Positions 4,991 through 62,705 of a stretch of DNA of 64,000 nucleotides are shown one piece after another; position 1 is the first letter of the stretch; each line of letters starts with the position of its first letter. The DNA is taken from NCBI GenBank assembly GCA_013178415.1, contig JABLXA010000004.1, forward strand, positions 62,001-126,000. The letters run 5' to 3'. Made by a program: the position numbers and the translations under genes. The notes beneath the pieces were generated by a model. It ran no database searches. It had not been told where the DNA came from and saw nothing but the letters and a program-made list of their open reading frames with translations. Source of the DNA: Bacillota bacterium (lineage in GTDB: Bacteria > Bacillota > SHA-98 > Ch115).

Positions 4991-6325
4991 CTGAGTGTGG
5001 CTTTTGCCGCCAGTGAATCCAATTTCCTCGCATCCTCAAGGCGCAGATGATACCGGAAAAAGCGATGAGAATTCCCTATTCGGTATAAGGGTGATAGGCT
5101 TGAAGGCATGATATATCAATGCATGCACTCTCTCCTCGCGGCACACTACAGAAGGGTTCCCACATACTGAAATGACGAGCTTTGGACGTATAGTAAGAGC
5201 TTTACTCCAATCGATGGGTTTTGTGAGAAAATCGTCTAATTAGCCCTACCCTACCATATTGAATTGCTTTGGTCGTGGTCAGAAGGCTATCCGAATCGAA
5301 TTCATTTCCTTCCTCTTATCGAGGGCCCATCATGGTTATCGAGGTAGCCGATCACGGACTGGTACTGACGGACGTATGGACCTTCCACCTCAAAGGCACA
5401 CTCGCCCTCTCGTCCCTCGGGTCCATGCCATATGGCATAATCGCCCGGGCCGGACACGTCGGGCTCACGCCAAGGCTTCATAGACAACTCTCCCTTCTCT
5501 TCGAATCGTTTTGATGCAGGCTCTCTCATGCCGCATGGGGCAAGACATAAACTGTGACAAGATTGAGGCCTATGTAGCTTCTTATATGCAAGGGGTGGGG
5601 CTCCGAGAGAATATTGGAAATAAGGCTGGATTACGTAGGGCCCCAGAGAAAAATCTGCTATTCTGTGGGGTATTAAGCGCAATCTCACATGTTTTTAAGG
5701 CATGCCAGACCAAGATAGGTTTATATCGTCGTGAGCCATAGCGGTGAGCTGGACGACAACATGTCAAAGATGCTTAATAAGGAGAACTTCGGCAGGAGGA
5801 GGAACATCGAATTGCCATGTATGAGGACCTTCTTGAGCGAGGTAGGATAGCAATAAAAATCCCGGGTACATCTATTATCCTTAAGGAGGCGGTACATTTG
5901 GCCAGAGCGGTTTCTGGAGTGTCTTGAAGTCCCAATTTTGGTAGGGTTGATGTATGGCGTAAAAGCCATTTATCTACCGGGGAAGATTTTGAGTGGATCA
6001 TCAAAGATAGCCCAGATGGTAGATAATCACCCTATTGATGGGTTGGGTTTTGCTAATCATTTGCTAATGTACTATCTGAAATGACCTATCACGCGACGGA
6101 CAGATTAACATAGCGTACTGCTTAAAATGCAGCTAGTAGTAAACTCGAAAACTCGGCTCGTTCAATTTACATTTATCTGTAAAAGAGGCTATAAAGTGAT
6201 TGTAAAACTGATTGATTAAGTTGTTGATGATCTATTTCTACAGGGAGGCTCAAAATCCTTCTTCTTGGATGATAAAAACCGAGAAATATATGTGGCGACT
6301 ACATTATCTCCACTAAAAGCACGGG
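4991..6325. other. Degenerate DNA with short coding remnants, no intact gene seen
   Basis: I find no gene of recognisable family here. Three stretches look like worn coding sequence. On the minus strand 5481-5302 encodes a 59-residue frame with a plausible GGGAGA site. On the plus strand about 5785-5927 reads ELRQEEEHRIAMYEDLL and continues in a conserved-looking way before a stop. About 6220-6350 reads SKSFFLDDKNREIYVATT in a frame with an upstream stop. None can be tied to a function. Confidence 0.4.
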
Positions 6326-6877
6326 TGACAAGCTCTTGGCCAGATCTCTAAGGTGGGTGGCGAGTTATTGGTCATCCCAAACCGCTGGTGACGAGTTTTC
6401 GGTCACCCTAGACCGATGGTGGCGAGTCTCTGGGCAGGTTGCGCGCGGAAGTGACTGAGAATTCGTCAGCTTAGACCGAGGGTGACGAGACTGTAGGCAG
6501 GTCCCGCACGGAAGTGGCTAAAAATCCGTCAGCTTCCCCGCCAAGGTGGCGACATTCCCGTCAGGTTGGGATGATTTTGGAAAAGTCTGGGTCTATCTCA
6601 TCTTGAGCTAGCTAGAATTTAGGCAGGTTTTTCTCAAAGGTGGCCAAGATTTCGTCGGCCTCTGGTCCGTGCCGGCAGATTTCTCGCCACCTTGCCCTCA
6701 AATTGGAAGATTATAGGTTATGATTATCCATAATAAGGGATTTTGTAGCATATATTGGCCTGGAGTGGCGAGATTTTGGCCAGTTTGGACGCGGAAGTGG
6801 CTGGAATTTCGGCAGCATCTGCTCTCAAGTGCGAAAATCCTACCAGGCTCTACTCTCCGATGGCCAGAACCTAGGAG
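6326..6877. repeat. Array A: 18 helically phased TGRC-N9-GYCA dyads
   Basis: A 17-bp dyad (four bases, nine-base spacer, four bases) recurs with left halves at 6326, 6358, 6389, 6420, 6452, 6483, 6515, 6547, 6578, 6609, 6641, 6673, 6704, 6734, 6766, 6798, 6830 and 6861. Steps are 31 or 32 bp with one of 30, averaging 31.5 bp. Clear examples are TGAC-GAGTTTTCG-GTCA at 6389 and TGGC-GAGATTTTG-GCCA at 6766. The units at 6704 and 6734 are AT-rich and atypical, and the same two units are atypical in arrays B and C. The unit at 6830 has lost one spacer base. The region has stops in all frames, and a non-integral codon period rules out protein repeats. Confidence 0.85.
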
Positions 6878-7088
6878 ATTGCTCGAAAACTCTGACGACC
6901 TCTATATATTGTGGGATATAGCTTCTTTGGTAGGGTTTCCGAGCAGATTCCTAGGTCTGGGTTAATAAAACGCCAATTGTTCGGTCTGCCTCGCCTGCTT
7001 GGGCTGCCAGATTTTAGCACAGGTATATATGCGACAAAGGCCCTTGCAGACAGCGGGCCCGGAGAATGGTTAGCTGGGGGGCGCTACC

Positions 7089-10075: not shown

Positions 10076-10283
10076 CGCACGAAGCGCCCCAGCGGGGCGA
10101 TATGGAAGACTTCGACATTCTATTCATGAAGGGAGAATTCCTCGTGGCAGAAGTGGCAGAATCATTTAGGCCCGGTTAAAACAGGCGTTGGTCGTGAGGT
10201 CTGAACAAGCCTGACGGAGACTTCGCGCGCGGATTGTTGTGAATCCTTACAGAGCGGTCGAGAATCCTTGCAGAGCGATCGCG

Positions 10284-11027
10284 CTATTTACGTCCCCCAT
10301 GCGCGGCTCTTCTTTTCTTTAGCTCTTCGCAAAGGGCGGAAAATGGTATATCTTGGGACGCCAGCGCCACCAGGGAATGATACCAAAGGTCAGCCAGCTC
10401 GGCAACGATGTCGCTGGATATCCCGTTTTTCGCTGCGATGATGAACTCCCCGGATTCTTCCCCGACCTTCCTCAGGATCCGGTCGAGGCCAGATGCCATA
10501 AGCCGCGAGGTGTAGGACCCCTCGAGCGGATTTTCTTTTCTGTCCTTGATCACGTCGTAAAGCTCATCGAGTATCCGGGCAGGCGAATCCGGATAGACAG
10601 GCGAATCCGAATGGGCAGGTGAATCCAAAGGATGTGCGGCGGCGCCGACCGCCTCATTTTCCTCTATTTCGAATTCACCACGTTCATTCAATCTCCTATA
10701 AAAGCAGGAAAAGAAGCCATCATGGCATGCCACCCCGGCCTGTTCGACATTGATGAGCAGGGTATCTCTATCGCAGTCCGCGCGAATCTCTTTTACCAGC
10801 TGGTAATGCCCGGAGGTCTCGCCTTTGAGCCAGAGGCTCTGGCGTTTGCGGCTCCAAAACCACGTCTTGCCGGTCTCCAGAGTTCTCCGCAGCGCCTCCT
10901 TGTTCATATATGCTACCATGAGCACGCATCCGGTCTTATGATCCTGAATCACAGCCGGAATCAGCCCGTCCGGCGAAAAGACCAGCTGAGACAAGATCTC
11001 ATCGCGCAATGGTTTCGAATTCTCCAC
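10284..11027 (-). CDS. hisIE: Bifunctional phosphoribosyl-AMP cyclohydrolase / phosphoribosyl-ATP pyrophosphatase
   Basis: Catalyses steps 2 and 3 of histidine synthesis. The N-terminal cyclohydrolase domain (residues 1-130) has [30 protein letters not shown] and the zinc-binding DCDRDTLL and CHDGFFSCF motifs. The C-terminal pyrophosphatase domain (about 150-247) has [20 protein letters not shown] and the ADLWYH helix. Between them is a linker containing three copies of a six-residue DSPxxx unit, an 18-bp minisatellite at DNA level. The GTG start has AAGGA ten bases upstream, and the gene follows hisF by 21 bases. It is the last gene of the his operon. Confidence 0.95.
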
Positions 11028-11048
11028 TGCATATCATCCTTCCTTCGC

Positions 11049-11804
11049 TCAGAGCCTCACTGGTATGCCCTTATCTCTCAAATACTCCTTAACCTGGCGG
11101 ACCCGAAACATGCCGTAGTGAAAGACCGAGGCAGCCAGGGCCGCGTCTGCCAGTCCTTGGGTAAGTACCTGATAGAAATCTTCCAGCTTCCCGGCCCCTC
11201 CAGATGCAATAACCGGAATATCCACTGCTTCCGCCACTTCCCTGGTTATGGCAATGTCATAACCTTCCTTGACTCCATCTGTGTCCATACTGGTGAGAAG
11301 TATTTCACCAGCGCCCAATTCTTCAACTTTTCGAGCCCATTTCACAGCATCTATTCCTGTCGCGTTCCGGCCCCCATGTGTGAAGACTTCCCAATGGTCA
11401 TTCACCCGTTTGGCATCTATGGCTACGACAATGCACTGGCTTCCGAATTTACGGGCTCCCTCGGAAATAAGGCTGGGATCGCGCACTGCCGCGGTATTGA
11501 TGGAGACTTTGTCTGCCCCAGCCCGGAGGAGAGTTCCGATGTCATCGGTGTTTCGGATACCTCCTCCAACAGTGAATGGAATGAAGACTTGGGAAGCGAC
11601 ATCTCTTGCCACATCTACAATGGTGCTCCGGTCCCTCCAGGAGGCTGAAATATCTAAAAAGACCAGCTCGTCCACGGACTCATCATTGTAAAATTTCGCA
11701 AGTTCCGTGGGCGAACCTGCGTCTCTCAATTTCTGGAAATGTATGCCTTTTACTACTCTACCATCTTGGACATCCAGGCAGGCTATGATTCTCCTTGCAA
11801 GCAT
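11049..11804 (-). CDS. hisF: Imidazole glycerol phosphate synthase cyclase subunit
   Basis: A 251-residue (beta-alpha)8 barrel that joins ammonia from HisH with PRFAR to give imidazole glycerol phosphate and AICAR. Catalytic aspartates lie in [10 protein letters not shown] (residue 11) and VVAIDAKR. The two phosphate-binding sites are TVGGGIRN and VIASGGAGK. The ATG at 11804 is preceded by AGGGGTGAG; a longer frame to 11891 reads into repeat DNA and is not likely to be translated. In this genome the matching glutaminase is fused to HisA instead of being a free protein, so HisF must recruit HisH through that fusion. Confidence 0.95.
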
Positions 11805-11919
11805 GTTCTCACCCCTGAAAACCATCATCGGGAGCCGCAGACGCAGCAGCTGGAATGTCGCCCCGCCACTGGGCATTGGAAGCTGCAGCACAGCAGCTGG
11901 GATGTGGCCCTATCGCTGG

Positions 11920-12060
11920 ATGGACACCCGTGCCGCCATGGCGGCACCATCGGGGCCGCAAAATAACGCCCGCTATTTACTGGATAGACCCCCATGCTGC
12001 TGTCGCAGCGCCGTCAGAAGGATGGAAATCCCCCGAAGCGGACCCCACTATTTTCTGGGT
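11920..12060. repeat. Two copies of a dispersed palindromic repeat, one entering hisA
   Basis: Two adjacent copies of an approximately 65-85 bp repeat lie here. Its core is GTGCCGCCATGGCGGCAC (11930-11947), a perfect palindrome in the first copy and a worn one (ATGCTGCTGTCGCAGCGCC) in the second. Flanks read TAGACCCCCATG on one side and GGATGGAAATCCCCC then CTATTTTC on the other. Further copies lie at 27.36-27.80, 29.74, 44.10 and 62.07 kb. The second copy supplies the last 20 or so codons of the HisH-HisA gene. Confidence 0.8.
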
Positions 12061-13623
12061 AGCCGCAAGAACATCCTGGAGGGTCAGATCCTTCGTATAG
12101 AGTGCCCGCCCTATGATCATACCAGTGATCCTCCCGGGGAGCGCTTCTGATTCCCTTGCGGCCAATGCTATTTGTTTTACATGCGCAAGGTTTGCTATAC
12201 CCCCAGATACTATCGTGTCGACGCCCATTCGCGCGACAGCCATGGCATGATCGAGATTTGGTCCCTGCATTGCCCCATCTCGCCGTATATCCGTCACTAT
12301 CGTCTGCCGTATACCCAGAAGCTTTAGAGCCCTGACAACGTCCTCGATGGTCCGGCCTGTGTCACGCTGCCATCCGTCCACCGCCACTTGGCCATCTCTG
12401 ACATCTATTGCGGCGATGATCTTGCCGTCGAACCGGTCGACCAGCTGGCTTATCAATTCTGGCGAATTGAGAGCGGCGGTGCCGACGATGGCCCATGAAA
12501 CGCCTGCTTCAAATGCCTTCGCCACACTCTCAAAAGTCCTCAACCCGCCGCCTAATTCTATCTTGACGCCCGGCACAGCGCTGGCCATTTCTTTTATCAG
12601 CGGAAGGTTGACCGGCTCCCCGGCCGCTGCGCCGTCTAGATCTACTATATGAATTCTTGACGCCCCTTGAGAGGCCCAGAATGACGCTATTGCAACAGGA
12701 TCTTCCGAGAATACCGTCTCTTTGGAGAAATCCCCCTGAAACAGGCGCACACATTTCCTCCGCCTGATATCAATGGCAGGGATGACTTCAAGGTATCCAT
12801 CTTCAGGAGCGCCTTTATGGATTTTCTTGAAATCGCTCCCGGCGCAGTGTACCGAAACTGAGGGAGGCGATTTAACTGAGACAGGCGCTTTGCACAATCC
12901 GATTGAGGCAGGGGCCTTGCACAATCCGATGAAATTGGACAAAAGAGATAGCCCCACGCTGCCACTTTTCTCTGGGTGGAATTGGACACCGAATACAGAC
13001 CCCTTGCAGACCGCCGAAGGGAAATTCACAGCTGGAAGCGCCACACTGGTGGAGGAGAGATCCTGTGAGCAGCGTGTTTCCCCAGAGATTTCAAATCCAT
13101 ATGTAGTCATCCCAACTTCAACATCGGCTTCATCCGGCACAGCATAGTATGAGTGAGCGAAATAGAAATAGGAATCGTCCGGGATTGTATCCAATAGCTT
13201 ACATTCTCTCCGGATCTTTACTTGATTCCAGCCCATATGGGGGACTTTGGGCGCCTTTACCGGCAAGATGTGAGTTATGGCATCATCGAATTCAAATCTC
13301 CTCACCGAACCCTTTATAACTCCGAGACCCTCAGTCCATTGAGACTCTTCGCTTCTTTCAAACAGCAGCTGCATTCCAAGGCATATCCCAAGGACAGGCT
13401 TGCCGCTCGCCAGAAATGATCTGACTGTTTCATTAAGTCCGCTATTATGCAGGAAGTCCATGGCTTCCCCGAACGCTCCGACGCCAGGGAGGATGAGCCC
13501 GTCCGCCGCGGCCACCTGTTCCGGATCACTGGTGATGGTAGCTTCAGCCCCAAGGCTTTGCAGCGCCTTCTTGACGCTGGTGACATTCCCTATCCCGTAA
13601 TCTAAAATGGCTATCATGATCAT
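11977..13623 (-). CDS. hisHA: HisH-HisA fusion: IGP synthase glutaminase joined to ProFAR isomerase
   Basis: A single 548-residue frame. Residues 1-231 are HisH, the class I glutaminase, with GICLGMQ (nucleophile Cys81) and FGVQFHPEKS (His216, Glu218). A roughly 16-residue insertion precedes the last motif. Residues about 232-277 are a linker with a duplicated nine-residue unit, GLCKAPASI then GLCKAPVSV. HisA starts at EVIPAIDI (catalytic Asp near 284) and carries TDIRRDGAMQGPN (second Asp) and DTIVSGGI. No start codon or ribosome site precedes HisA, so it must be made as the fusion. The final 20 residues come from the dispersed palindromic repeat. RBS AAGGA precedes ATG 13623; ATG 13617 is possible. 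Confidence 0.93.
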   Translation of the reverse strand: MIMIAILDYGIGNVTSVKKALQSLGAEATITSDPEQVAAADGLILPGVGAFGEAMDFLHNSGLNETVRSFLASGKPVLGICLGMQLLFERSEESQWTEGLGVIKGSVRRFEFDDAITHILPVKAPKVPHMGWNQVKIRRECKLLDTIPDDSYFYFAHSYYAVPDEADVEVGMTTYGFEISGETRCSQDLSSTSVALPAVNFPSAVCKGSVFGVQFHPEKSGSVGLSLLSNFIGLCKAPASIGLCKAPVSVKSPPSVSVHCAGSDFKKIHKGAPEDGYLEVIPAIDIRRRKCVRLFQGDFSKETVFSEDPVAIASFWASQGASRIHIVDLDGAAAGEPVNLPLIKEMASAVPGVKIELGGGLRTFESVAKAFEAGVSWAIVGTAALNSPELISQLVDRFDGKIIAAIDVRDGQVAVDGWQRDTGRTIEDVVRALKLLGIRQTIVTDIRRDGAMQGPNLDHAMAVARMGVDTIVSGGIANLAHVKQIALAARESEALPGRITGMIIGRALYTKDLTLQDVLAATQKIVGSASGDFHPSDGAATAAWGSIQ

Positions 13624-13739
13624 CTCACCATCCTTTTGCCGCGCGGAGGCGCCCCATGTAAGGGCCACGCGTGGAGATCCTCCACGTAGACGCCCCTCTT
13701 GTTTCATGCATGGGCAAGAACGTGGTATTGGGGTCAACC

Positions 13740-14378
13740 TCAAAGCACGCCTTTAGTTGACGGTATGGATGTTCTGCGGGTATCTAGAGATACGGCCTCC
13801 GCCAGCGCCCTTCCAAAACCCTTGAATATGGCCTCGATGATGTGATGCGTATTCTTTCCGTATATTAGATTGATATGCAGCGTAACCCTTGCATTCCGGA
13901 CGAAACCCATGAAAAATTCCTCGATGACCTCTGTATCCATGTCGCCCACCTTTTCTCTTTGCAGGGGAACGTTGTAGACAAGATGACTCCTTCCACTTAT
14001 ATCGATGGCCTCACTTACAAGGGCCTCGTCCATGGGAATCTGGACGCTGCTGAATCTCCTTATTCCAGCTCGATCTGAGAGAGCCTTATCAACGGCCTGT
14101 CCGAGACAGATGCCGACATCCTCGACGAGATGATGGAAGTCAACCTCCACATCTCCTTCCGCTTTAATAGACAGATCAAACAGGCCATGGGCGCCCATCA
14201 AAGTCAGCATATGGTTCAAAAAACCGCACTGGGTATCAATTGAGACCACGCCTGATCCATCCAGGTCGATCTCAACTCCCACCTTGGTCTCGGAAGTTTC
14301 ACGTCGTACTTTTGCCGAACGACAGATTTCCATGGCTTCCATTGGCATTCGGCGCAAGATGTCCTCCGGTTTGTTCAA
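13740..14378 (-). CDS. hisB: Imidazoleglycerol-phosphate dehydratase
   Basis: Catalyses step 6 of histidine synthesis (imidazole glycerol phosphate to imidazole acetol phosphate). The duplicated metal-binding motifs are present: GFLNHMLTLMGAHG with DFHHLVEDVG in the first half, and the second repeat KNTHHIIEAIFKGFG. The usual bacterial length is about 195 residues, and this frame has 212. The annotated TTG at 14378 gives a short N-terminal extension; an ATG at 14348 or 14342 may be the true start, since the conserved part begins at RSAKVRRETSET. The protein is monofunctional, with no histidinol-phosphatase domain, and no histidinol-phosphatase gene was seen in this operon. Confidence 0.95.
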   Translation of the reverse strand: MNKPEDILRRMPMEAMEICRSAKVRRETSETKVGVEIDLDGSGVVSIDTQCGFLNHMLTLMGAHGLFDLSIKAEGDVEVDFHHLVEDVGICLGQAVDKALSDRAGIRRFSSVQIPMDEALVSEAIDISGRSHLVYNVPLQREKVGDMDTEVIEEFFMGFVRNARVTLHINLIYGKNTHHIIEAIFKGFGRALAEAVSLDTRRTSIPSTKGVL

Positions 14379-14477
14379 GGAGGCCGCGCCCTACCTCTCC
14401 TTTCGCCATCTTCTTGCCAAGCAAATGTCATTGCTTTTGGACATATGGGATTCGTGATCGGATTAGAGACCTTTCGC

Positions 14478-15605
14478 TTATCTCAATCTGGATAGAGCCT
14501 CGAGAAATACATCATTGTCCTCTGGTCTCCCTATGGTCACCCTCAGGTACTGCGATATGTCAAGAGCTCCAGGGGCCAGATCATGCGGCCTTGCAAACTT
14601 TCGCACCCAGACTCCGGAATCGAGCAATCTCCTATAAGCCTCGTCCGCCGGAAGGGGAGGCCGGAGGAGAAGGAAATTGGAGGAGGAAGGGAATACCTCG
14701 ATCCCAATCTGGAGAAGGCCGGCATATAATCGTTGCCTTTCCTTCTTTATCTCTTCCACGACTCTCAAGAGCTCATCCTGGTGACGCAAGATCATCTGGG
14801 CTGCCAGTATGGAAATAGAACTGCAGTTATACGGCAATTTCACCAGGTCCAGCTGTTCCGCCACCGCTGGCGCCATGATCCCGTAACCCATCCGTAGACC
14901 AGCAAGCCTCAGAGCCTTTGAGAAGGTGCGGAGAATGATGATATTGCCGCTCGATATATTTTCTTCGTCTCCTGGCCTCGCAGCCTCATTGAGGAGGGCC
15001 CCGCCTTCACCCCCTGGCCTCGCAACCTCATCAAGGAGGGTTTCACCGCAAAAATCGTAATATGCCTCATCGATCACCACGAGTCCCTTGGCTTCGCGGG
15101 CAAGCGTCCTGAATTCCTCGGTGTAGGCGCCGCCATTTGGGTTATTGGGATTGCAGAGGAACGCAAGCGAGGCATCATCAGAGAGTTCCTCCTGGAGCCT
15201 TTTCATATCGAGTGTGAAGCCTTCGCCAAACGGGACCTCCACCACTGGTATGCCAACGGATTCCGCAATCCGGCGATACATGGTGAAGGAAGGATAAAGT
15301 GTGATCACCTTCCTGGCTCTTTGTCTCCAGGCGAGTATGATCATCTGGAGCAGCTCATCAGAACCTACCCCGACGACTACCATATTCTCAGTGACTCCGA
15401 GCCTTTGCGACAGGTCGCGTCTGAGTTCATCTGCGTTCTCAGACGGGTACCTGTTGAATGGGAGCCTCAAGATCGCCTCGGCGATTTCGCGTTTGATGTG
15501 TAATGGAACGTCGTATGGACTCTCATTGGCGTTGAGCCTTATGAGAGGTGTCCGGCTATATTCAAGGGCCGCATCCGCAGCCTTGCCAAATGCATAGGAA
15601 GACAT
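14478..15605 (-). CDS. hisC: Histidinol-phosphate aminotransferase
   Basis: A PLP-dependent fold-type I aminotransferase that converts imidazole acetol phosphate to histidinol phosphate. It has LNANESPYDVP near the start, FLCNPNNPNG, IDEAYYDF and the PLP-lysine motif RTFSKALRLAGLRMGYG. Between the DEAYYDF segment and the lysine motif sits an insertion of about 30 residues made of a 14-residue unit repeated twice (LLDEVARPGG... then LLNEAARPGD...), a 42-bp duplication at DNA level. The ATG at 15605 lies one base past the hisD stop and uses GAGGCGAG inside hisD as its ribosome site. Confidence 0.95.
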   Translation of the reverse strand: MSSYAFGKAADAALEYSRTPLIRLNANESPYDVPLHIKREIAEAILRLPFNRYPSENADELRRDLSQRLGVTENMVVVGVGSDELLQMIILAWRQRARKVITLYPSFTMYRRIAESVGIPVVEVPFGEGFTLDMKRLQEELSDDASLAFLCNPNNPNGGAYTEEFRTLAREAKGLVVIDEAYYDFCGETLLDEVARPGGEGGALLNEAARPGDEENISSGNIIILRTFSKALRLAGLRMGYGIMAPAVAEQLDLVKLPYNCSSISILAAQMILRHQDELLRVVEEIKKERQRLYAGLLQIGIEVFPSSSNFLLLRPPLPADEAYRRLLDSGVWVRKFARPHDLAPGALDISQYLRVTIGRPEDNDVFLEALSRLR

Positions 15606-15606
15606 G

Positions 15607-17037
15607 CTAACTCGCCTCATTTCCTCTGCTGCCCGCCATAGATTCATCAGGGTGTGAATCTTGCGTCATAGACTCATCGGGGCGTGAACCCTGCATCATA
15701 GACTCATCTGAGCGTGGATCCTGCTTTGTATCTTTCGCTGAATTGTCCTGGCATTGAATCGCGCCTATGGAATCGAGCCGTATTCTCATTGAATTCGCAT
15801 GGGCAAACAGGCCCTCGGTTTCAGCAAGCTTTATGGCATAGGGGCTTGCCTTCGCTAGATTTCTGGGGCTATACTTCACCACATTTATTGGTTTCAAAAA
15901 GTCCAGGCACCCCAGTGTCCCCCGGTACCTGGCGCAGCCCAACGTCGGCAGCACATGATTCGGACCGGCGACGTAATCTCCAATAGGTTCGGGACTATAA
16001 TGTCCAAGGAATATCGTCCCCGCGTTCCTGATCTTCTCTAGAAGTGCCATGGGGTCGGCTACCAAAAGCTCCAGATGCTCCGGGGCGTATTCATTTGAAA
16101 TCTCAATAGCCTCACCCATCGACGAGACCTCAACTGCCCCGCCATTTTGCGTGAGAGCCTTGATGATGACTTCACGCCTTGGCGCATTCCGCGTCTGCTT
16201 TTCGACTTCCGCGTCCACGAGATCCGAAAGGCCGGCTGCAGTAGTGATAAGAACAGCTGAAGCGAGTTCGTCATGCTCCGCCTGGGAGAGCATGTCCGCC
16301 GCCACAAAAGCTGGATCGGCGGTATCGTCGGCCAGTATGAGAATCTCGCTCGGCCCGGCCAGCATATCGATTCCGACGTCTCCATATACGAGCTTTTTGG
16401 CAGAGGTTACAAACGCGTTGCCTGGACCTACGATCTTGTCGACCCTCGGCACGATGTCAGTCCCATATGCCATCGCCGCGATAGCCTGAGCCCCGCCCAC
16501 CTTGAAAATCTTATCTACACCGCAAATATCGGCGGCCACCAACACGAAAGGATTGATTTCCCCATTTTTGCCGGGCGGGGTGCACATTATTATTTCCTCG
16601 ACCCCGGCGACTCGAGCCGGTATAGCCGTCATCATAACAGTGGAAGGGTAGGCGGCTTTGCCGCCAGGTGTATAGATGCCTACCCGCTTCAGCGGCGCCA
16701 TTCTCTGTCCAAGGAATCCATCGCCATCAAGTTCCATTGTCCAGGAGGCGATGGGCTGGCGTTCATGGAAAGCCTTGATGTTTTCGAAAGCGAACATCGC
16801 CGCATCCATGAATTCCCTGTCGACAACGGCGCGGGCACGCATGATCTCATCTCTTGATACCTGGAGCCCTTCCATATCCAGTGAGATGCCATCAATCTCA
16901 TGGGAAAGCTCAATCAGAGCCCGGTCCTTATAGGTTCTGACCCGATCTATTATCTGCCGGGCGACAGTTTCCTGCAGATCAAAGCGATTCTGTCTTCGTG
17001 ACAGGAGTTCGCTGGCGGAAAGCCTGGGGATCATCAT
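15607..17037 (-). CDS. hisD: Histidinol dehydrogenase with minisatellite tail
   Basis: Zinc and NAD-dependent enzyme for the last two steps of histidine synthesis. It contains VGIYTPGGKAAYPS, KVGGAQAIAAMAYGT, DKIVGPGNAFV, AGPSEILI, LSQAEHDELASA (a zinc-ligand region) and NEYAPEHLEL. The canonical protein would end near residue 430. Here a further 45 residues form a hydrophilic tail with three 10-residue units (QDPRSDESMM, QGSRPDESMT, QDSHPDESMA). The start overlaps the hisG stop by four bases (ATGA). Confidence 0.95.
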   Translation of the reverse strand: MMIPRLSASELLSRRQNRFDLQETVARQIIDRVRTYKDRALIELSHEIDGISLDMEGLQVSRDEIMRARAVVDREFMDAAMFAFENIKAFHERQPIASWTMELDGDGFLGQRMAPLKRVGIYTPGGKAAYPSTVMMTAIPARVAGVEEIIMCTPPGKNGEINPFVLVAADICGVDKIFKVGGAQAIAAMAYGTDIVPRVDKIVGPGNAFVTSAKKLVYGDVGIDMLAGPSEILILADDTADPAFVAADMLSQAEHDELASAVLITTAAGLSDLVDAEVEKQTRNAPRREVIIKALTQNGGAVEVSSMGEAIEISNEYAPEHLELLVADPMALLEKIRNAGTIFLGHYSPEPIGDYVAGPNHVLPTLGCARYRGTLGCLDFLKPINVVKYSPRNLAKASPYAIKLAETEGLFAHANSMRIRLDSIGAIQCQDNSAKDTKQDPRSDESMMQGSRPDESMTQDSHPDESMAGSRGNEAS

Positions 17038-17861
17038 GCGCCATCACCTGCTTCAATTTCGGGCTCTCCTGTTTTTCCATCCTGTTCCATCGTGGGCTCT
17101 CTCATCTTCCTGTCCTGTTTCATCGCTGGCTCTCTTATCTTCCCGTCCTGTGAGATCCGCCCTCTATCATCTGCCGCAGGTTTCCTTTCATTTTTATTTC
17201 CATTTGCCAGAGGCCGGATAGCGTCAAGCAGAGCGCGTATCCTCGCGATTTTGAGCCCGAAGCTCGCGCGGTTCGCTATCAGCCTAGCAGTCGCAGTGGC
17301 GATTTCAGATACAACTACGAGATCATTCTCAGCAAGAGTCCTCCCGGTCGAGACTATGTCCACTATGAGATCTGATAGACCCGCCTGCGGCGCGAGCTCC
17401 GTCGCTCCATGTAGGGGAATGATCTTTACGTTAATACCCCTGGCATTGAAATATGTCTCAGCGACACGGGGAAATTTGGTAGCGACCCTTAGGGCTCTAT
17501 GGCTGCTTCCACCGGGAGTGTCTAGGATACGGGACATTTCTGCCGCGAGAGTGCTGGGAGCTGCCACTACAAAGCGACAAAAACCAAACCCAAGGTCGAC
17601 GAGTTCATATACGTCCCTTGCCTCTTCCATAAGCACGTCTTTCCCGACAATCCCTACATCAGCCGCGCCATATTCTACATACACAGGCACATCTGTGGGA
17701 CGAGCGAGGATGAATCGCGCATCATCCACATCGAATACAAGCTTCCTGGTGTCTTCCTGCAGTTCACCACATTGGAACCCCGCCCCGCTCAGCACCCTCT
17801 GACAGTCAGGCAGGAGTCTTCCCTTGGGAATCGCTATGGTAAAGAGGTTCTCTTCTAACAA
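17034..17861 (-). CDS. hisG: ATP phosphoribosyltransferase, short form, with repeat tail
   Basis: First and committed step of histidine synthesis. This is the short HisG type without the regulatory ACT-like domain: IAIPKGRLLPD at the N-terminus, RPTDVPVYVEYGAADVGIVG, and DLIVDIVSTGRTLAEN for PRPP binding. It therefore needs HisZ, encoded directly upstream. The catalytic core ends near residue 215. The remaining 60 residues are a charged tail with three 11-residue units (QDGKIREPAMK, QDRKMREPTME, QDGKTGEPEIE). The TTG start at 17861 lies two bases after the hisZ stop. Confidence 0.95.
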   Translation of the reverse strand: MLEENLFTIAIPKGRLLPDCQRVLSGAGFQCGELQEDTRKLVFDVDDARFILARPTDVPVYVEYGAADVGIVGKDVLMEEARDVYELVDLGFGFCRFVVAAPSTLAAEMSRILDTPGGSSHRALRVATKFPRVAETYFNARGINVKIIPLHGATELAPQAGLSDLIVDIVSTGRTLAENDLVVVSEIATATARLIANRASFGLKIARIRALLDAIRPLANGNKNERKPAADDRGRISQDGKIREPAMKQDRKMREPTMEQDGKTGEPEIEAGDGA

Positions 17862-17863
17862 CC

Positions 17864-18844
17864 CTAAATGCGCCCCCCTGCCATCAATATGTGCTCAATA
17901 TGAAGGGCAAAGCCCACAGCTCCTTCTGAACGACCGAGAAGTCTGAGCAGGCCGTCGTATCGTCCCCCACCGCAGACGGGGCCGCCATGGCCAGGGGCAT
18001 AAGCTTCAAAAACCATTCCTGTATAGTATTCCAAATCCCTGACCAAGCCTAGATCCAGTTGGATCTGGATGGAAGGCCTGTTTATCTTTGCCTCCTTGAT
18101 AACCCTCCGCAGGCTTGAGACGACACATGAGATTCGACCAGAAGGATCATATGCCGCCAGCGCTTCTGCGCTTTCCAGCAGCTTTTCCCCATCTGGCAGC
18201 TCCAGGATCTCCATCAAGAAATCCCTTGACCCCTCTGGAATCCGGCTCCCTTGTATAAATCTCTCCAGGGACACGAGATCTCTGACCAGCAGGGCTTCCC
18301 TTACGCGGGTCTTTTCAGCTTCTTCCATGCCGGCGATTTCCATGACGGCCTCGATGAGGCCTACATGGCCGAGCCGAATTTGGCAGCTCGAGATGCCAGC
18401 TTCTTCGAGACACCTCGAGGCAAGGGTCAATATCTCTATGTCCGCCTCTGGCTCGCCGTCTCCCACCAACTCTGCCCCTATCTGGTGCGATTCAAGGCCG
18501 TCTGCCTCTCCGGGCCTGCGGGCTTTGAAGATGCTACCTGAATAGAAAAGGCGGAGCGGCCTCGGGAGCTCTCGCAATTCCTTTGCGGCAAGACTTGCTA
18601 CGACTTCGGTCATGTCAGGCCTCAAGATCATGACCCGGCCGCGGTAGTCAATGAATTTGTAAGCCGAATCCATGAGCTTTTTCAGTGGCCGTGGCCCATT
18701 AGAAGCATATTCTTGCACAAGAGGTATGACTACTTCCTGGTAACCGGAGGCTGATAATATCCCTGCGAGACGAGCTTCAATCTCTCGCTTTGAGACGCTT
18801 TCAGGCGGCAAAAGATAACTGCGGCCTTCAGAAAAGGAATTCAA
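17864..18844 (-). CDS. hisZ: ATP phosphoribosyltransferase regulatory subunit
   Basis: A catalytically dead paralogue of histidyl-tRNA synthetase that forms an octamer with short HisG and carries the histidine feedback site. It has class II synthetase motif 2-like ILRPDMTEVVASLAA, FYSGSIFKARRPGEADGLESHQIGAE, and a late motif with YYTGMVFEAYAPG and GGGRYDGLL. There is no anticodon-binding domain, consistent with its 326-residue length. It starts with TTG at 18844, with GGAG close upstream. It is the first his gene after a 35-bp repeat array. Confidence 0.92.
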   Translation of the reverse strand: MNSFSEGRSYLLPPESVSKREIEARLAGILSASGYQEVVIPLVQEYASNGPRPLKKLMDSAYKFIDYRGRVMILRPDMTEVVASLAAKELRELPRPLRLFYSGSIFKARRPGEADGLESHQIGAELVGDGEPEADIEILTLASRCLEEAGISSCQIRLGHVGLIEAVMEIAGMEEAEKTRVREALLVRDLVSLERFIQGSRIPEGSRDFLMEILELPDGEKLLESAEALAAYDPSGRISCVVSSLRRVIKEAKINRPSIQIQLDLGLVRDLEYYTGMVFEAYAPGHGGPVCGGGRYDGLLRLLGRSEGAVGFALHIEHILMAGGRI

Positions 18845-18887
18845 TGCACTCCAACCTCTCCCACGAAATCCGTCATCGGTCTATTAC

Positions 18888-19040
18888 CGCTTTAATCGCG
18901 AAATCTATCATTGGTTTGTCATCGCGCTAATCACGAAATCTTTCTCCGGTTTGTTATCGCGTTAATCATGAGATTTGTTGTTGATTTGCCATCGCCTTAA
19001 TCTTGAAATCTATCATTGGTTTGTTACCGCGTTAATAAGG
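18888..19040. repeat. 35-bp tandem array with CGCG-TTAAT-CRCG dyads upstream of hisZ
   Basis: Five units have dyad starts at 18888, 18923, 18958, 18993 and 19028, each exactly 35 bp apart. The 13-bp core reads CGCT-TTAAT-CGCG, CGCG-CTAAT-CACG, CGCG-TTAAT-CATG, CGCC-TTAAT-CTTG and CGCG-TTAAT-AAGG, followed in each complete unit by ATCTATCATTGGTTTG or a variant. A partial unit extends to about 18863. The array sits between the yerC-like gene and hisZ, where a his promoter or operator is expected. Confidence 0.85.
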
Positions 19041-19093
19041 TAAAGTGTTAAATTAAAAGATCAAGAAGAGTCTACCACCTGATATACACCCTG

Positions 19094-19432
19094 TCAAGAC
19101 CCTGATTTGGGCGGACTGGATTTTGGCGGCAGAATCCCTTCTTCACGCATCCTGTCGATGATAAGCCGGTAGCCATCCGCTCCATATTGGAGAAATCTCT
19201 TTACGCGGCTTATAGTGGCAGTGCTTGCGCCCGTCTTTTCGGCGATTTCTGTATAGGTGCGCCCTTCGTCCAGCATCAAGGCTACCTGAAATCTCTCCGC
19301 TAGCGACTTTATTTCGGCCACAGTACATAGATCCTCGAAGAACTTATAGCATTCGTCTACGGTCCTGAGGGACATCATCGCCTTGAATAGAAGGGTAGTA
19401 CGGTCGTCCATCAGTTTCTCGCTGGAAGGCAT
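19094..19432 (-). CDS. YerC/YecD-type TrpR-family regulator
   Basis: A 112-residue TrpR-superfamily helix-turn-helix protein. The dimerisation helices (LFKAMMSLRTVDECYKFFEDL) are followed by EIKSLAERFQVALMLDEGRTYTEIAEKTGASTATISRVKRFL, the DNA-binding part. The start at 19432 follows GAGGTGG by six bases. It lies directly upstream of the his operon in the same direction, across the 35-bp dyad array. From this context I infer that it may regulate histidine synthesis. The C-terminus has a short Pro/Lys/Ser repeat (PPKSSPPKSGS). Confidence 0.85.
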   Translation of the reverse strand: MPSSEKLMDDRTTLLFKAMMSLRTVDECYKFFEDLCTVAEIKSLAERFQVALMLDEGRTYTEIAEKTGASTATISRVKRFLQYGADGYRLIIDRMREEGILPPKSSPPKSGS

Positions 19433-19569
19433 TGATAACCACCTCATATCTTGTGATAGAGAGGATCGGTCATAATTAGTGGTTTCAACGTAATCGGCGA
19501 TTCCCCTTCACGAAATCAAAGGATCAATTCCTCTCAATTCGAGATGAGCAGAACATATCATCTTATCTT

Positions 19570-21491: not shown

Positions 21492-22388
21492 TCAAGATGA
21501 GCTGATCTCAATGTCTAAGGATACCTCTACATTCGTGGAAGTATTCCAGGCGGTGATAGTATAGCGTCTCCCTTGAGGAACCCTTCTTCCCTGATTGTCC
21601 ACCTGATTCCAGACCTCTCTGAACACCTGGGATTCACCGGGAGAAAGCGTCACCTCGGTGATCATCATTATGAACACCTTTCCGTGTGACCAGCGCCAAA
21701 TCTCCTCGCCCCCGCTCATGATGAGGATGTCAAATTGCTGGCCTGTGCCATATTGCAGCGAAATTGGAGCCCCCGAGACGTTAGTCTTGGAGAATATGAT
21801 TCGCACAGGTTCGCCCGGGTTATAAATACGCTGATTTGTATAAAGCATATAGAGGATGCCGCCTTCCAGGCGAGTCGCGTAGTTCCCACGTCGTCCTGGA
21901 GGGACAACTGGTGGCACCGTGGGGGGTACAACGGGCGGTCGCGGTGGTGGCACTGGCGGTGCTGGCGGCGGTGTTGGGGGTGCCGGCGGGGGACCGGTTA
22001 CAGGGATCAAGATCATTTGGCCAGCGTAAATGAGGTCGGGGTTGGTGATGTTATTGGCTGCTGCAATCGCTTCAATTGTTGTTCCGTACCTGGCGGCGAT
22101 CTCCGCCAATGTGTCGCCGGGCTGGACAATGTAGACCCTGAATCCTGGGACGACGGTTACGGGGGGCACTGGTGCCGGCGGCCCGGGCGGTCTGGGTGGG
22201 GTGGGTCTTGGCGCCGGTGGTCCTGGAGGGACGCCGGCGACGGGTATCATTAAAACTTGTCCAGGAAAGATCAGGTTCGGGTCGGGAAGATCATTTGCTC
22301 TGATGATCGCCTCTGGCGTAACACCATATTGTTGGGCTATGCGCCAGATAGTATCCCCGGCCTGAACAACATAGCTGATCATGGCCAT
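21492..22388 (-). CDS. LysM double-domain protein with C-terminal BsuPI-type domain
   Basis: A 298-residue protein. Residues 4-50 and 83-130 are two LysM domains (YVVQAGDTIWRIAQQYGVT and YIVQPGDTLAEIAARYGTT), which bind N-acetylglucosamine in peptidoglycan. Proline-rich linkers (about 52-78 and 133-165) separate them from a beta-rich domain (about 166-298) that resembles the intracellular proteinase inhibitor BsuPI: ILYMLYTNQRIYNPGEPVRI and YTITAWN at the end. No signal peptide is visible, so export is uncertain. GAGGAGGTAA precedes the start. Confidence 0.85.
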   Translation of the reverse strand: MAMISYVVQAGDTIWRIAQQYGVTPEAIIRANDLPDPNLIFPGQVLMIPVAGVPPGPPAPRPTPPRPPGPPAPVPPVTVVPGFRVYIVQPGDTLAEIAARYGTTIEAIAAANNITNPDLIYAGQMILIPVTGPPPAPPTPPPAPPVPPPRPPVVPPTVPPVVPPGRRGNYATRLEGGILYMLYTNQRIYNPGEPVRIIFSKTNVSGAPISLQYGTGQQFDILIMSGGEEIWRWSHGKVFIMMITEVTLSPGESQVFREVWNQVDNQGRRVPQGRRYTITAWNTSTNVEVSLDIEISSS

Positions 22389-22607
22389 TTACCTCCTCAG
22401 GAAGAGGCTTTCTTCCTTCAGCAATCTGAATACCTCATCTGGTCCTATGAATACGCTTCTGGGCCTGCTTATATCACATTATTAAAGTCTATGAAAGCAT
22501 GACACTCTGATCCGCTGATTCGTCAATTTCGGATTACCTTGTATCTGGAGAAATGATAGATATGTCCGGCGCCTGGATTTGCCCCAGTCCACCGCAAGTG
22601 GGAGATC

Positions 22608-22800
22608 GCGGATATGAGGCCGCTCAGAGTGAAAGGTCATGGAATATCAGGCCGCTCAGAATAAAAGAAAAAGATCATGGAACGTCATGCTGCTCAGAGC
22701 GAAAAATCGCAGAATATCAAACCATTTAGGGCGAAAGGTCGCGGAATATCGGGTCGCTCAGAACGAAATTAGAGAGAAAGATCGCGGAATATCAAGCCAC
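22608..22800. repeat. Array D: six GCGG-N9-CCGC-type dyads
   Basis: Dyads start at 22608 (eight-base spacer), 22639, 22677, 22709, 22741 and 22784. Typical cores are GCGG-AATATCGGG-TCGC and ATGG-AATATCAGG-CCGC. Steps are 31, 38, 32, 32 and 43 bp, the two long ones carrying 6 and 11 extra bases. The flank GAAAGATC or a variant precedes each unit. The last unit overlaps the final codons of the DUF1015 gene. Confidence 0.75.
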
Positions 22801-24217
22801 TCAATGGTTTAGGATAAAAGTATGTAGACTTTTGTGGCATTCTCTGGCCTGCCTTCACTACACTGCGAATATCATCGAGCCGGGTAGGGCTGAGGAAAAA
22901 GGCCATCTGACACCTGCCGTTCATTACCCTAGCTTGCGCTTCGCCGGGGTCTCGCGTATATGATAGATTTAGATCTGTTTCGCCCAATTCTCGCATCATG
23001 ATGTGATTTATCAAGATTTCATGAAGCAGGGTGACATCCAGGTTCCCCCGCGGAGATGATGCTTCTTTGCCTAATAGCTTCTCGACTTGGGTCCTGGTAG
23101 CAGGGTCGTCCTTCATGATGAGACTGAAGTACCCCGCCTTATCGATGAGAACAAGAAATGAGTGTTCCTCTCCAGGCAATGATTCTGGCATAAGGTCCCC
23201 CATTTCTTCTATCGTGAAGAATCTTTCGGCGGCCTGGAGAAATCGAGATTTATCAAGGGCTTTGAAGTTCTCTAGCATGCGGTGGGTAGGGAAGACCGTA
23301 AGGTCTTGGGTATCCATATTAACCAGCCACATCATGACATAATCGGCTGGTATATTATTTCCAGCAACATAATTGGGCGCCATGCCCTCACTGGCCACCT
23401 TGGCTGATCTTATTTCATCCCGGTAGACCATTGCTGTTTCATAACGATGATGGCCATCTGCTATGTAGATCTGCTTGTCTAGAAAATATCGCTCCAATGA
23501 TCTCACAAGGTCTTTATCGCAAAATGACCATACTCTATGGGAAATGCCATTGTCATCGGTGAGTTCCATAGCCGGTCTATTTGAAGAAATGATCTCTGAA
23601 ACAATACTGTCAGCCCCTCCAGAGGGGTCTGTATACATACCGAAAATCGGGCTGAGATTTGCCTTGCAGGACCGCATAAGGGCCAGTCTATCCTGCTTGG
23701 GGCCTGGCATAGTATCCTCATGAGGCAGGATGATCCCCTTCTCGTATTCCTCTATCTTGACAGCTGCAATTATACCGCGCTGGATGAGGGAAGACTTTGG
23801 CGCACTTTTCACACTTGAAGGCCCTGACCTTCTCCCCGAATGTTCATCATCGGAAGCGGAGCTGTCAGAAAACTGAGCTCTGCCCGATGTTTGTTTCTTG
23901 CCATATGTAGGGAAGGCCTCAAGGGAATATTCTTCTTCATAAATGTATAAAGAAGGTTCTGAATCCGCCACGAGAATCCCTTCGGTCAGCCACCGACGGA
24001 ACGCCTCGCCCGCGCGTATGTATTTATTTTCGTGCGCCCCATCCCCTGGCCTATCCTTCCCTAGGATCAGCCTTATAACGTTCTGGGGGTGCCTCTCATA
24101 TAAGATGTTTTGCATTTCAGGGCTGATGACATCATAGGGCGGAGCTATGACCTTGGACAAATCCGCGATGCGCTCTTGGTTATAATGAATGCCCTCAAAC
24201 GGTATGATTTCTGCCAT
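22769..24217 (-). CDS. DUF1015 family protein
   Basis: A 482-residue protein of the widespread DUF1015 family, often found with amino-acid or central-metabolism genes but with no firmly assigned reaction. Conserved parts are AEIIPFEGIHYN, VIAPPYDVISPEMQ, RPGDGAHENKYIRAGEAFRRWL, GIILPHEDTMPGPKQDRL, and YIADGHHRYETAMVYRDE. A low-complexity Ser/Asp-rich insertion lies near residues 108-138. The gene's last codons run into array D. It is followed upstream by an unannotated gap and has no operon partner. Confidence 0.85.
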   Translation of the reverse strand: MAEIIPFEGIHYNQERIADLSKVIAPPYDVISPEMQNILYERHPQNVIRLILGKDRPGDGAHENKYIRAGEAFRRWLTEGILVADSEPSLYIYEEEYSLEAFPTYGKKQTSGRAQFSDSSASDDEHSGRRSGPSSVKSAPKSSLIQRGIIAAVKIEEYEKGIILPHEDTMPGPKQDRLALMRSCKANLSPIFGMYTDPSGGADSIVSEIISSNRPAMELTDDNGISHRVWSFCDKDLVRSLERYFLDKQIYIADGHHRYETAMVYRDEIRSAKVASEGMAPNYVAGNNIPADYVMMWLVNMDTQDLTVFPTHRMLENFKALDKSRFLQAAERFFTIEEMGDLMPESLPGEEHSFLVLIDKAGYFSLIMKDDPATRTQVEKLLGKEASSPRGNLDVTLLHEILINHIMMRELGETDLNLSYTRDPGEAQARVMNGRCQMAFFLSPTRLDDIRSVVKAGQRMPQKSTYFYPKPLSGLIFRDLSL

Positions 24218-26621: not shown

Positions 26622-26700
26622 CCGACGACGCCGATCTGATTTATTGAAAAACAGAGAAAAGGCGAGATCGAGAGAGTTAGTCTTAAAACATTAAGATGAG

Positions 26701-27316
26701 TGGCATAATTTTCGGCACCTGAGGGTAGAGGCCGCCGAAATTCCAGCCACCTCTGCATCCAAGTCGGCTAAAATCTCGCCACCTCCAGCTAAGATATACC
26801 ATAAAGTTCCTTCTTATGGATAATCATAACTTATAATCTTCCAATTCGAGGGCAGGGTGGCTAGAAATTCGCCACTCAGGTCCAGGGGCTGGCGAAATCT
26901 TGGCCACCCTTGAGCAAAACCTGCCTAAATCCTAGCCAGCTCAAGACGAACTTGATCCAGACTTTGCCAAAATCATCCCGACCTGACGAGAATATCACCA
27001 TCCCGATAAGGAAGCTGACAGATTTTTAGCCACTTCTGCGGGGGACCTGCCTGCAGTCTCGTCACCTTCGGTCTAGGCTGACGGATTTTTAGTCACTCCC
27101 GCGCGCAACCTGCCTAAAAGCTTGCCACCCCCGGTTTAAGCTGACGAATTCTCAGTCACTCCCGCGCGCAACCTGCCTAAAAGCTTGCCACCCCCGGTTT
27201 AAGCTGACGAATCTTCAGCTAACTGCGCGCGGGACCTGGCTAGAGACTCATCATCGGCGATTTGATGTGACCGGAAAATCGCCACATGTTTCGAGGAACT
27301 GGCCGAAATATCGCCG
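26701..27316. repeat. Array B: 20 helically phased TGRC-N9-GYCA dyads, inverted copy of array A
   Basis: Left halves lie at 26701, 26733, 26765, 26797, 26827, 26858, 26890, 26922, 26953, 26984, 27016, 27048, 27079, 27111, 27142, 27174, 27205, 27237, 27268 and 27300, an average of 31.5 bp. The reverse complement aligns with array A in register, including the AT-rich unit pair (26797 and 26827, with the same 30-bp step) and the conserved AATTGGAAGATTATA block. Two nearly identical 63-bp blocks (from 27111 and 27174) show recent duplication of a unit pair. No reading frame spans it. Confidence 0.85.
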
Positions 27317-51754: not shown

Positions 51755-51852
51755 AGATAACACCTCCTATTTCTCTATCCGAAGCAGATTTTCTACGAAG
51801 GGACGAGGATTCCTCTTGCAATGGTGCGACAAGTTAAAGTTTTATGTGAGTG

Positions 51853-52075
51853 GTCACGACGTAACAACTGTTTGCAGATGGCAGATTGTCACGGCGTGAC
51901 GGGTTCAGGTTGTGAACATATTATCACGGGGTGACAACTGAGGTCGGAAAGCAGATTGTTAAAATATGATAGGTTGAGATCATGGGTGGATTGTCACACA
52001 ATGACAATTGTGCGCAAAGAGCAAAGTGTCATGGCGTGACAGCTTGAGGCTGCGCATGGATGGTCACAGGGTGAC
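51853..52075. repeat. 35-bp array of GTCAC-N3-GTGAC dyads between divergent genes
   Basis: Seven dyads start at 51853, 51888, 51923, 51958, 51993, 52028 and 52063, each exactly 35 bp apart. Cores read GTCAC-GAC-GTAAC, GTCAC-GGC-GTGAC, ATCAC-GGG-GTGAC, GTTAA-AAT-ATGAT, GTCAC-ACA-ATGAC, GTCAT-GGC-GTGAC and GTCAC-AGG-GTGAC. Weak extra units fit at 51818 and 52098. The intervening 22 bases vary freely. Confidence 0.85.
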
Positions 52076-52422
52076 ACTTATGTATGGGTGAATAGGTGAT
52101 TACGGGATGGATTTCAGGGGTAAAATCTGCCGATATTCCAGTAAGCGCAACCTTGACTATTCACCCTAGTTTGGGTAGTCTAGGGATTGGATTCTATTTT
52201 TGCCAGATAGGATCTCCTGGCTAGCCGGGCCAATCTTTTGCCACAGGGTTTTGTTGCCACAGGGTTTTGCCCTGCTAGAGTTTATTTCGCTGAATCCCAT
52301 GCCAGGCAGCAATATGGGCAGAAGTGTGGGGCGCGGAAGAATTCTGGCGACTTGGTGAATACTTTGATTGATTGGTCTAGTAACCATTCAGAGGGCCTAT
52401 CTTCAAGATCAGGAGGGTGTCT

Positions 52423-62117: not shown

Positions 62118-62583
62118 TGGCGAAAATTCCATCACTTTCTGGGCAAACATGGCGAAATCCTCGCCAGCTCAAATCAGGGGTGGCGTGTTTTTAGGCAGGA
62201 TCTGTGTGAAGATGGCGAGGATTTCGGCAGCCTCCTCTCAGAGGTGGCGAAATAGTCGTCAGGTCGGGGCGATTCTGGGAGATCTTGGGTAGATTTTACC
62301 TACAGGTGGCTGAAATCTCGTCAGGTCTTGTCGAGAGGTGGCGGCAATGCCGCCAGTCTTCGTTCCCGGATGGCGAAATCTTCGCCACCTCATGTCCAAA
62401 TTGGAAGATTCAAGGAGGTGATTATCCAGTATAATACAGTTTATGGTATATATTGGGCCAGGGTGACGATATTTCGATCAGGCTGAAGGCAAGACTGGCG
62501 ATATTCTGGCCAGGATGAGGGCAGAGCTGGCGATGGTTTCGCCATTTGCCAGTCTGCGTTCAGGGGTGACGCCATATTCGTCA
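62118..62583. repeat. Array C: 14 clear TGRC-N9-GYCA dyads, third copy of the phased array
   Basis: Left halves at 62118, 62150, 62181, 62213, 62245, 62276, 62307, 62339, 62371, 62402, 62464, 62496, 62528 and 62567, with a weak unit at about 62433. Steps are 31 or 32 bp except the last (39). Six cores are exact palindromes, for example TGGC-GATATTCTG-GCCA at 62496. The AATTGGAAGATT block matches arrays A and B. The last two units lie about 350 bp before polA. Confidence 0.85.
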
Positions 62584-62705
62584 TCTATCTCGATGTTTTT
62601 AAACTAGCTTCTGTGATAATCTTGTCGCACCAGGCGGCTAGCAGCGCGGCGCAAAGAAATATTTTACTAGTGAATTCATCTTCTCGGTCACAAAGAAGTT
62701 ATGCG

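Follow-up and report, generated by a model that had tools for sequence, protein, structure and literature searches.

The his operon of this Bacillota bacterium is likely to be controlled by HisR, the 35 bp repeat in front of it having arisen by a lineage-specific duplication of DNA that begins with the downstream half-site of the HisR operator; the copies would then be at most weak extra half-sites and not the main control element. Within the window (the whole 64,000 nucleotide stretch that was analysed) the array was found together with matches to a promoter and to the HisR operator, the order of which is conserved in relatives, and the array was absent elsewhere (Table 1).

Gene order and the his regulator

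On the minus strand the order was the yerC-like gene, the array, hisZ, hisG, hisD, hisC, hisB, hisHA, hisF and hisIE, and the position of the array between the yerC-like gene and hisZ, as given in the first-pass annotation, was borne out. The yerC-like gene encoded a YerC/HisR protein of the TrpR superfamily which matched TIGR02531 (E 6e-39, 132 bits, cut-off 42) and which has solved TrpR-like relatives (3frw, 3g1c and 3kor). The YerC-like family is known as HisR, a histidine repressor found in Bacillota, whose published operator is the 20 bp palindrome cacTTTAnnnnnnTAAAgtg and whose gene lies directly before the his operon in some lineages; histidine-dependent DNA binding in vitro is documented only for the HisR of R. 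gnavus (PMC9413887). As the family is that of a known repressor and a HisR operator is present here, it is very probable that the YerC-like protein regulates the his operon. Named genomes yielded only distant relatives of HisZ (27-37% identity).

The locus resembles the HisR regulon of Bacillota (PMC9413887) in that a TrpR-family gene immediately precedes the his operon and an operator similar to cacTTTAnnnnnnTAAAgtg follows closely after the promoter. It differs in the five-copy 35 bp array between the operator and hisZ, which was present in none of the 68 other hisR-his loci.

An additional feature of the operon was that hisH and hisA formed a single open frame of 588 amino acids (11977-13743), joined by a 27 bp duplication; a separate HisA from a TTG start is also possible. 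The two genes are in different frames in the relatives G001 and G008.

Table 1. Positions of the annotated and predicted features of the hisR-his locus, numbered from the first nucleotide of the window
Feature	Position	Strand	Basis or remark
hisR (yerC-like), TrpR-family histidine repressor gene	19094..19447	-	TIGR02531, Pfam Trp_repressor
Predicted his promoter TTGACA-17-TAGACT	19069..19097	-	hisR stop codon within the -35 box
Putative extended operator with outer half-sites 8 bp out on either side	19023..19052	-	Half-site comparison across loci
Predicted HisR operator CACTTTACCTTATTAACGCG	19028..19047	-	2 mismatches to published consensus
Array copy 5 (hisR-proximal)	19002..19036	-	Last 9 bases belong to operator
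Array copy 4	18967..19001	-	Most diverged
Array copy 3	18932..18966	-	
Array copy 2	18897..18931	-	
Array copy 1 (hisZ-proximal)	18862..18896	-	
GGAG, likely hisZ ribosome-binding site	18849..18852	-	Read from sequence
hisZ	17864..18844	-	TIGR00443 E 8e-78, 262 bits (just below cut-off 272); Pfam PF13393
Remaining his operon: hisG, hisD, hisC, hisB, hisHA, hisF, hisIE	10284..17861	-	Order same in relatives
Five further his-operon duplications	10241-17151		Mostly at gene joints
hisG tail			33 bp tandem array
hisD tail, overlapping hisC start			30 bp tandem array
hisH/hisA joint			27 bp tandem array
hisI/hisE linker			18 bp tandem array
After hisE			21 bp tandem array

The predicted promoter and HisR operator

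The array had been described as lying where the his promoter should be. Analysis of the hisR-hisZ gap revealed only one promoter-like site (10/12) on the coding strand, and this preceded the array and overlapped the end of yerC/hisR; the array therefore lies in the predicted transcribed leader. A 20 bp operator was found near this promoter and was the sole site that good in the 64 kb window and one of six sites with ≤2 mismatches in the 3.57 Mb genome. Genome-wide, matches to the HisR operator pattern were fewer than matches to the reversed-pattern control, so that the operator match alone is no proof, and for the same reason the pattern cannot name further targets of a wider HisR regulon.

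The distance from the -10 box to the operator was 21 nt here and 20-22 nt in three close relatives (G001, G008 and G009). In these relatives, all of which lack an array, TTGACA just after hisR is followed by the -10 box, the operator and, 25-41 nt further on, hisZ, as against 184 nt between the operator and hisZ here. Counted from hisR, the array starts inside the downstream half-site of the operator and fills the leader to the hisZ ribosome-binding site, such that operator and array overlap at the hisR-proximal end only. Without the 166 bp of array that are not part of the operator, 18 nt would be left, which is shorter than the 25-41 nt of the relatives and of a similar order. These distances point to an array that arose by tandem duplication within the transcribed leader, beyond both the promoter and the operator. 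Some relatives belonging to the same order (G002 and G003) also have long leaders, of 228-235 nt, without an array, and a long leader is therefore not unique to this genome.

Of the 69 loci with a his gene next after hisR, 37 had an operator with a score of 16 or more out of 22, and this locus alone had a tandem array (period ≥15, score ≥50). It had been proposed that the YerC-like protein, or another factor, controls the his genes via the array. The YerC-like protein as regulator is supported, but the array as its operator is not, as the 68 other pairs are without one; 36 of these 68 array-less pairs keep a recognisable operator, which argues against a controlling role for the array. A literature search found no paper on tandem repeats associated with his-operon operators.

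In the mechanism that we propose, HisR encoded just upstream would control the his operon by histidine-dependent repression. With histidine plentiful, HisR and histidine would bind the operator, approximately 15-35 bases downstream of the transcription start predicted near 19062, and the bound protein would block the promoter, which overlaps the end of hisR. A tandem duplication in this lineage, beginning with the downstream half-site of the operator, would have made the array and lengthened the untranslated leader by up to ~175 bases, the copies diverging later. These copies would be at most weak extra HisR half-sites, presumably without strong function, and the leader array is probably neutral or a weak auxiliary. 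The lack of indels in 175 bp, the low variability of the inner half-sites (see below) and the imperfect operator, with its 2 mismatches, are points against this explanation.

Sequence of the array

TRF and repeat finding revealed five head-to-tail copies of 35 bp, ~71% alike, between 18862 and 19036; the repeat noted in the first-pass annotation (18888-19040) was real, but its extent had been given slightly short. The lag-35 self-identity of the array was 0.71, compared with a maximum of 0.44 in 20,000 shuffles. Across 175 bp there were ~27 substitutions between the copies (22 transitions and 5 transversions) and no indels. The exact 35 bp step described for the five units was thereby confirmed, although the motif ascribed to them, CGCG-TTAAT-CRCG, was exact in none of the five copies (1, 1, 1, 3 and 2 mismatches).

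The array consensus was not significantly more palindromic than shuffled versions of itself (arms of 6, 8 and 10 gave p 0.30, 0.91 and 0.82), and an array of palindromic operators was not supported, the dyad symmetry of the repeated site being no better than chance. The unit was found nowhere else in the 3.57 Mb genome, and the 13 bp dyad, at ≤1 mismatch, was found at only four other places genome-wide, which equals the level of the reversed control. An array of promoters, read by eye from TTAACG-17-TAGATT in copy 5, was also discarded, this site being degraded in most of the other copies and its -10 falling in poorly conserved columns of the array.

Bacterial minisatellites in intergenic regions are head-to-tail copies of one unit. 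The his array is like them in being tandem copies of one unit by TRF, in differing mostly by transitions and in being restricted to one lineage (1/69 loci); it is unlike them in having no indels and in having a unit which includes an operator half-site. For the minisatellite trait of a copy number that differs among strains, a search of the class brought up no second genome of the genus.

The array is part of the predicted 5′ leader, with nine bases between its end and the GGAG preceding hisZ, a position that would suit a function as RNA, be it an attenuator, a riboswitch or translation control. This reading can be given hardly any credence: the folding energy of the array was no better than that of shuffles (z +0.55), no Rfam family matched in the hisR-hisZ gap, no terminator was found on the transcribed strand of the leader and no run of histidine codons was found in any frame of it. 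Neither a known RNA family nor a terminator with a His-codon leader peptide was thus found, in agreement with the earlier failure to recognise a T-box or attenuator for the his operon.

Resemblance of the array copies to HisR sites

In the phase of the operator, the other four copies scored 13, 12, 11 and 15 of 22 and so did not score like true HisR operators, the accepted ones having 16-21 of 22, a range whose lower end is set by our own cut-off of 16. The in-phase reading was the best of all 35 phases, as would follow from the copying of the unit from an operator arm; because the copies are related to one another, the best phase does not count as separate evidence of binding. Variability was lowest in the columns of the inner half-site (0.12 vs 0.32; permutation p ~0.04, or 0.045 without the operator-proximal copy), which is weak evidence for constraint. 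The longer arm with both half-sites was no more conserved than the rest (p 0.25). The copies show weak traces of HisR half-sites.

An alignment of the 37 accepted operators, which come from loci related to one another and in which an 8 bp register was noticed without prior prediction, revealed a third half-site: in 21 of 37 a further TTA preceded that of the operator by exactly 8 bp, and no other upstream position had TTA in more than 13 of 37. The next TTA peaks were a further 8 bp upstream or at the position of the -10 box, and on the other side of the operator AAG was found again 8 bp downstream in 13 of 37. Extended operators were seen, for example, at loci L011, L007, L078 and L158. The alignment suggests that many HisR operators exceed the published 20 bp, additional half-sites lying 8 bp further out. 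The tandem operators of E. coli TrpR have half-sites at an 8 bp register beside the palindrome, and the extra half-sites of HisR operators are similar in this respect. The HisR half-sites differ in being TTTA/TAAA, the step of the array is 35 and not 8, and tandem binding by HisR would be by analogy. The TrpR half-site spacing is also quoted in PMC9413887; a search of the main text of that paper for an operator extension found none.

If the array were a series of auxiliary HisR sites, each copy would hold one or two half-sites and HisR would spread along the leader from the main operator, so tightening or grading repression through a block to the polymerase. The start of the unit in an operator half-site, the in-phase scores at the best of 35 phases, the low variation of the inner half-site columns, the exact spacing and the tandem tendency of HisR operators at other loci agree with this reading, whereas the copies score below all accepted operators as defined by the cut-off, the arm with both half-sites is no more conserved than the rest, the 35 bp step matches neither the 8 bp register nor a whole number of helical turns, and the array is present in no relative. 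On balance we regard auxiliary sites as possible though unlikely. Quite improbable is an expanded operator, at which HisR would nucleate at 19023-19052 and spread over the 35 bp copies of the half-site arm, such that a multi-site TrpR-family operator in the transcribed leader would have its repression tuned by copy number.

Other repeats in the his operon and the window

Six short tandem arrays, including that of the leader (35 bp), were found in the his operon of this genome. With 6.7 per 10 kb, the his operon was richer in arrays than a 200 kb part of its contig (0.4) and than the remainder of the window (1.8), with a Poisson p of 5e-5; the background was taken from 264 kb of one contig, and the test was devised after the pattern was seen. 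No arrays of score at least 80 were found in the his regions of relatives. The leader array could be explained without a new regulator, by a propensity for tandem duplication in this region or by weak constraint at the joints.

A second array was located at 51.8-52.1 kb, with dyads at 51817, 51852, 51887, 51922, 51957, 51992, 52027 and 52062, an exact 35 bp step. These eight dyads (51817-52076) were like TGTCAC-GGN-GTGACA and were separated by poorly conserved spacers, as expected of a phased operator array; the dyad was strongly palindromic (p 0.0005 at arm 8). A common array-building habit had been suggested for this array and the his array. The exact 35 bp step is indeed common to both, but homology between them was not supported (p 0.10 ungapped, 0.14 gapped), and the shared step may be a coincidence or a shared constraint. 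It is very unlikely that another DNA-binding protein recognises each copy of the his array, as seems likely for the palindromic array at 51.9 kb. Although the shared step and the presence elsewhere in the window of dyad-rich arrays of ~32 bp would be consistent with such a protein, the his unit is not palindromic, is found nowhere else in the genome, is absent from relatives and has no detectable homology to the 51.9 kb unit.

The regions 6300-6900, 26700-27300 and 62150-62640 are intergenic and contain degenerate dyads like GGTGGCGA-N4-TCGCCACC at ~32 bp steps. The segment AAATTGGAAGATT...GATTATCCA is common to all three, once inverted, and they are possibly operator arrays for one regulator. 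Another degenerate array of ~32 bp (unit like TCGCGGAATATCAGGCCGCTCAGAGCGAAAG) is found at 22607-22780, between the genes at 21492-22388 and 22769-24217.

Implications for the HisR regulon

This analysis places the his operon in the HisR regulon and proposes its promoter and operator to the base, while the eye-catching repeat is here probably not the control element. Should the array be functional, it would be an example of operator expansion through tandem duplication. The extra half-sites seen beside HisR operators, if real, would imply that HisR binds in tandem in the manner of TrpR.
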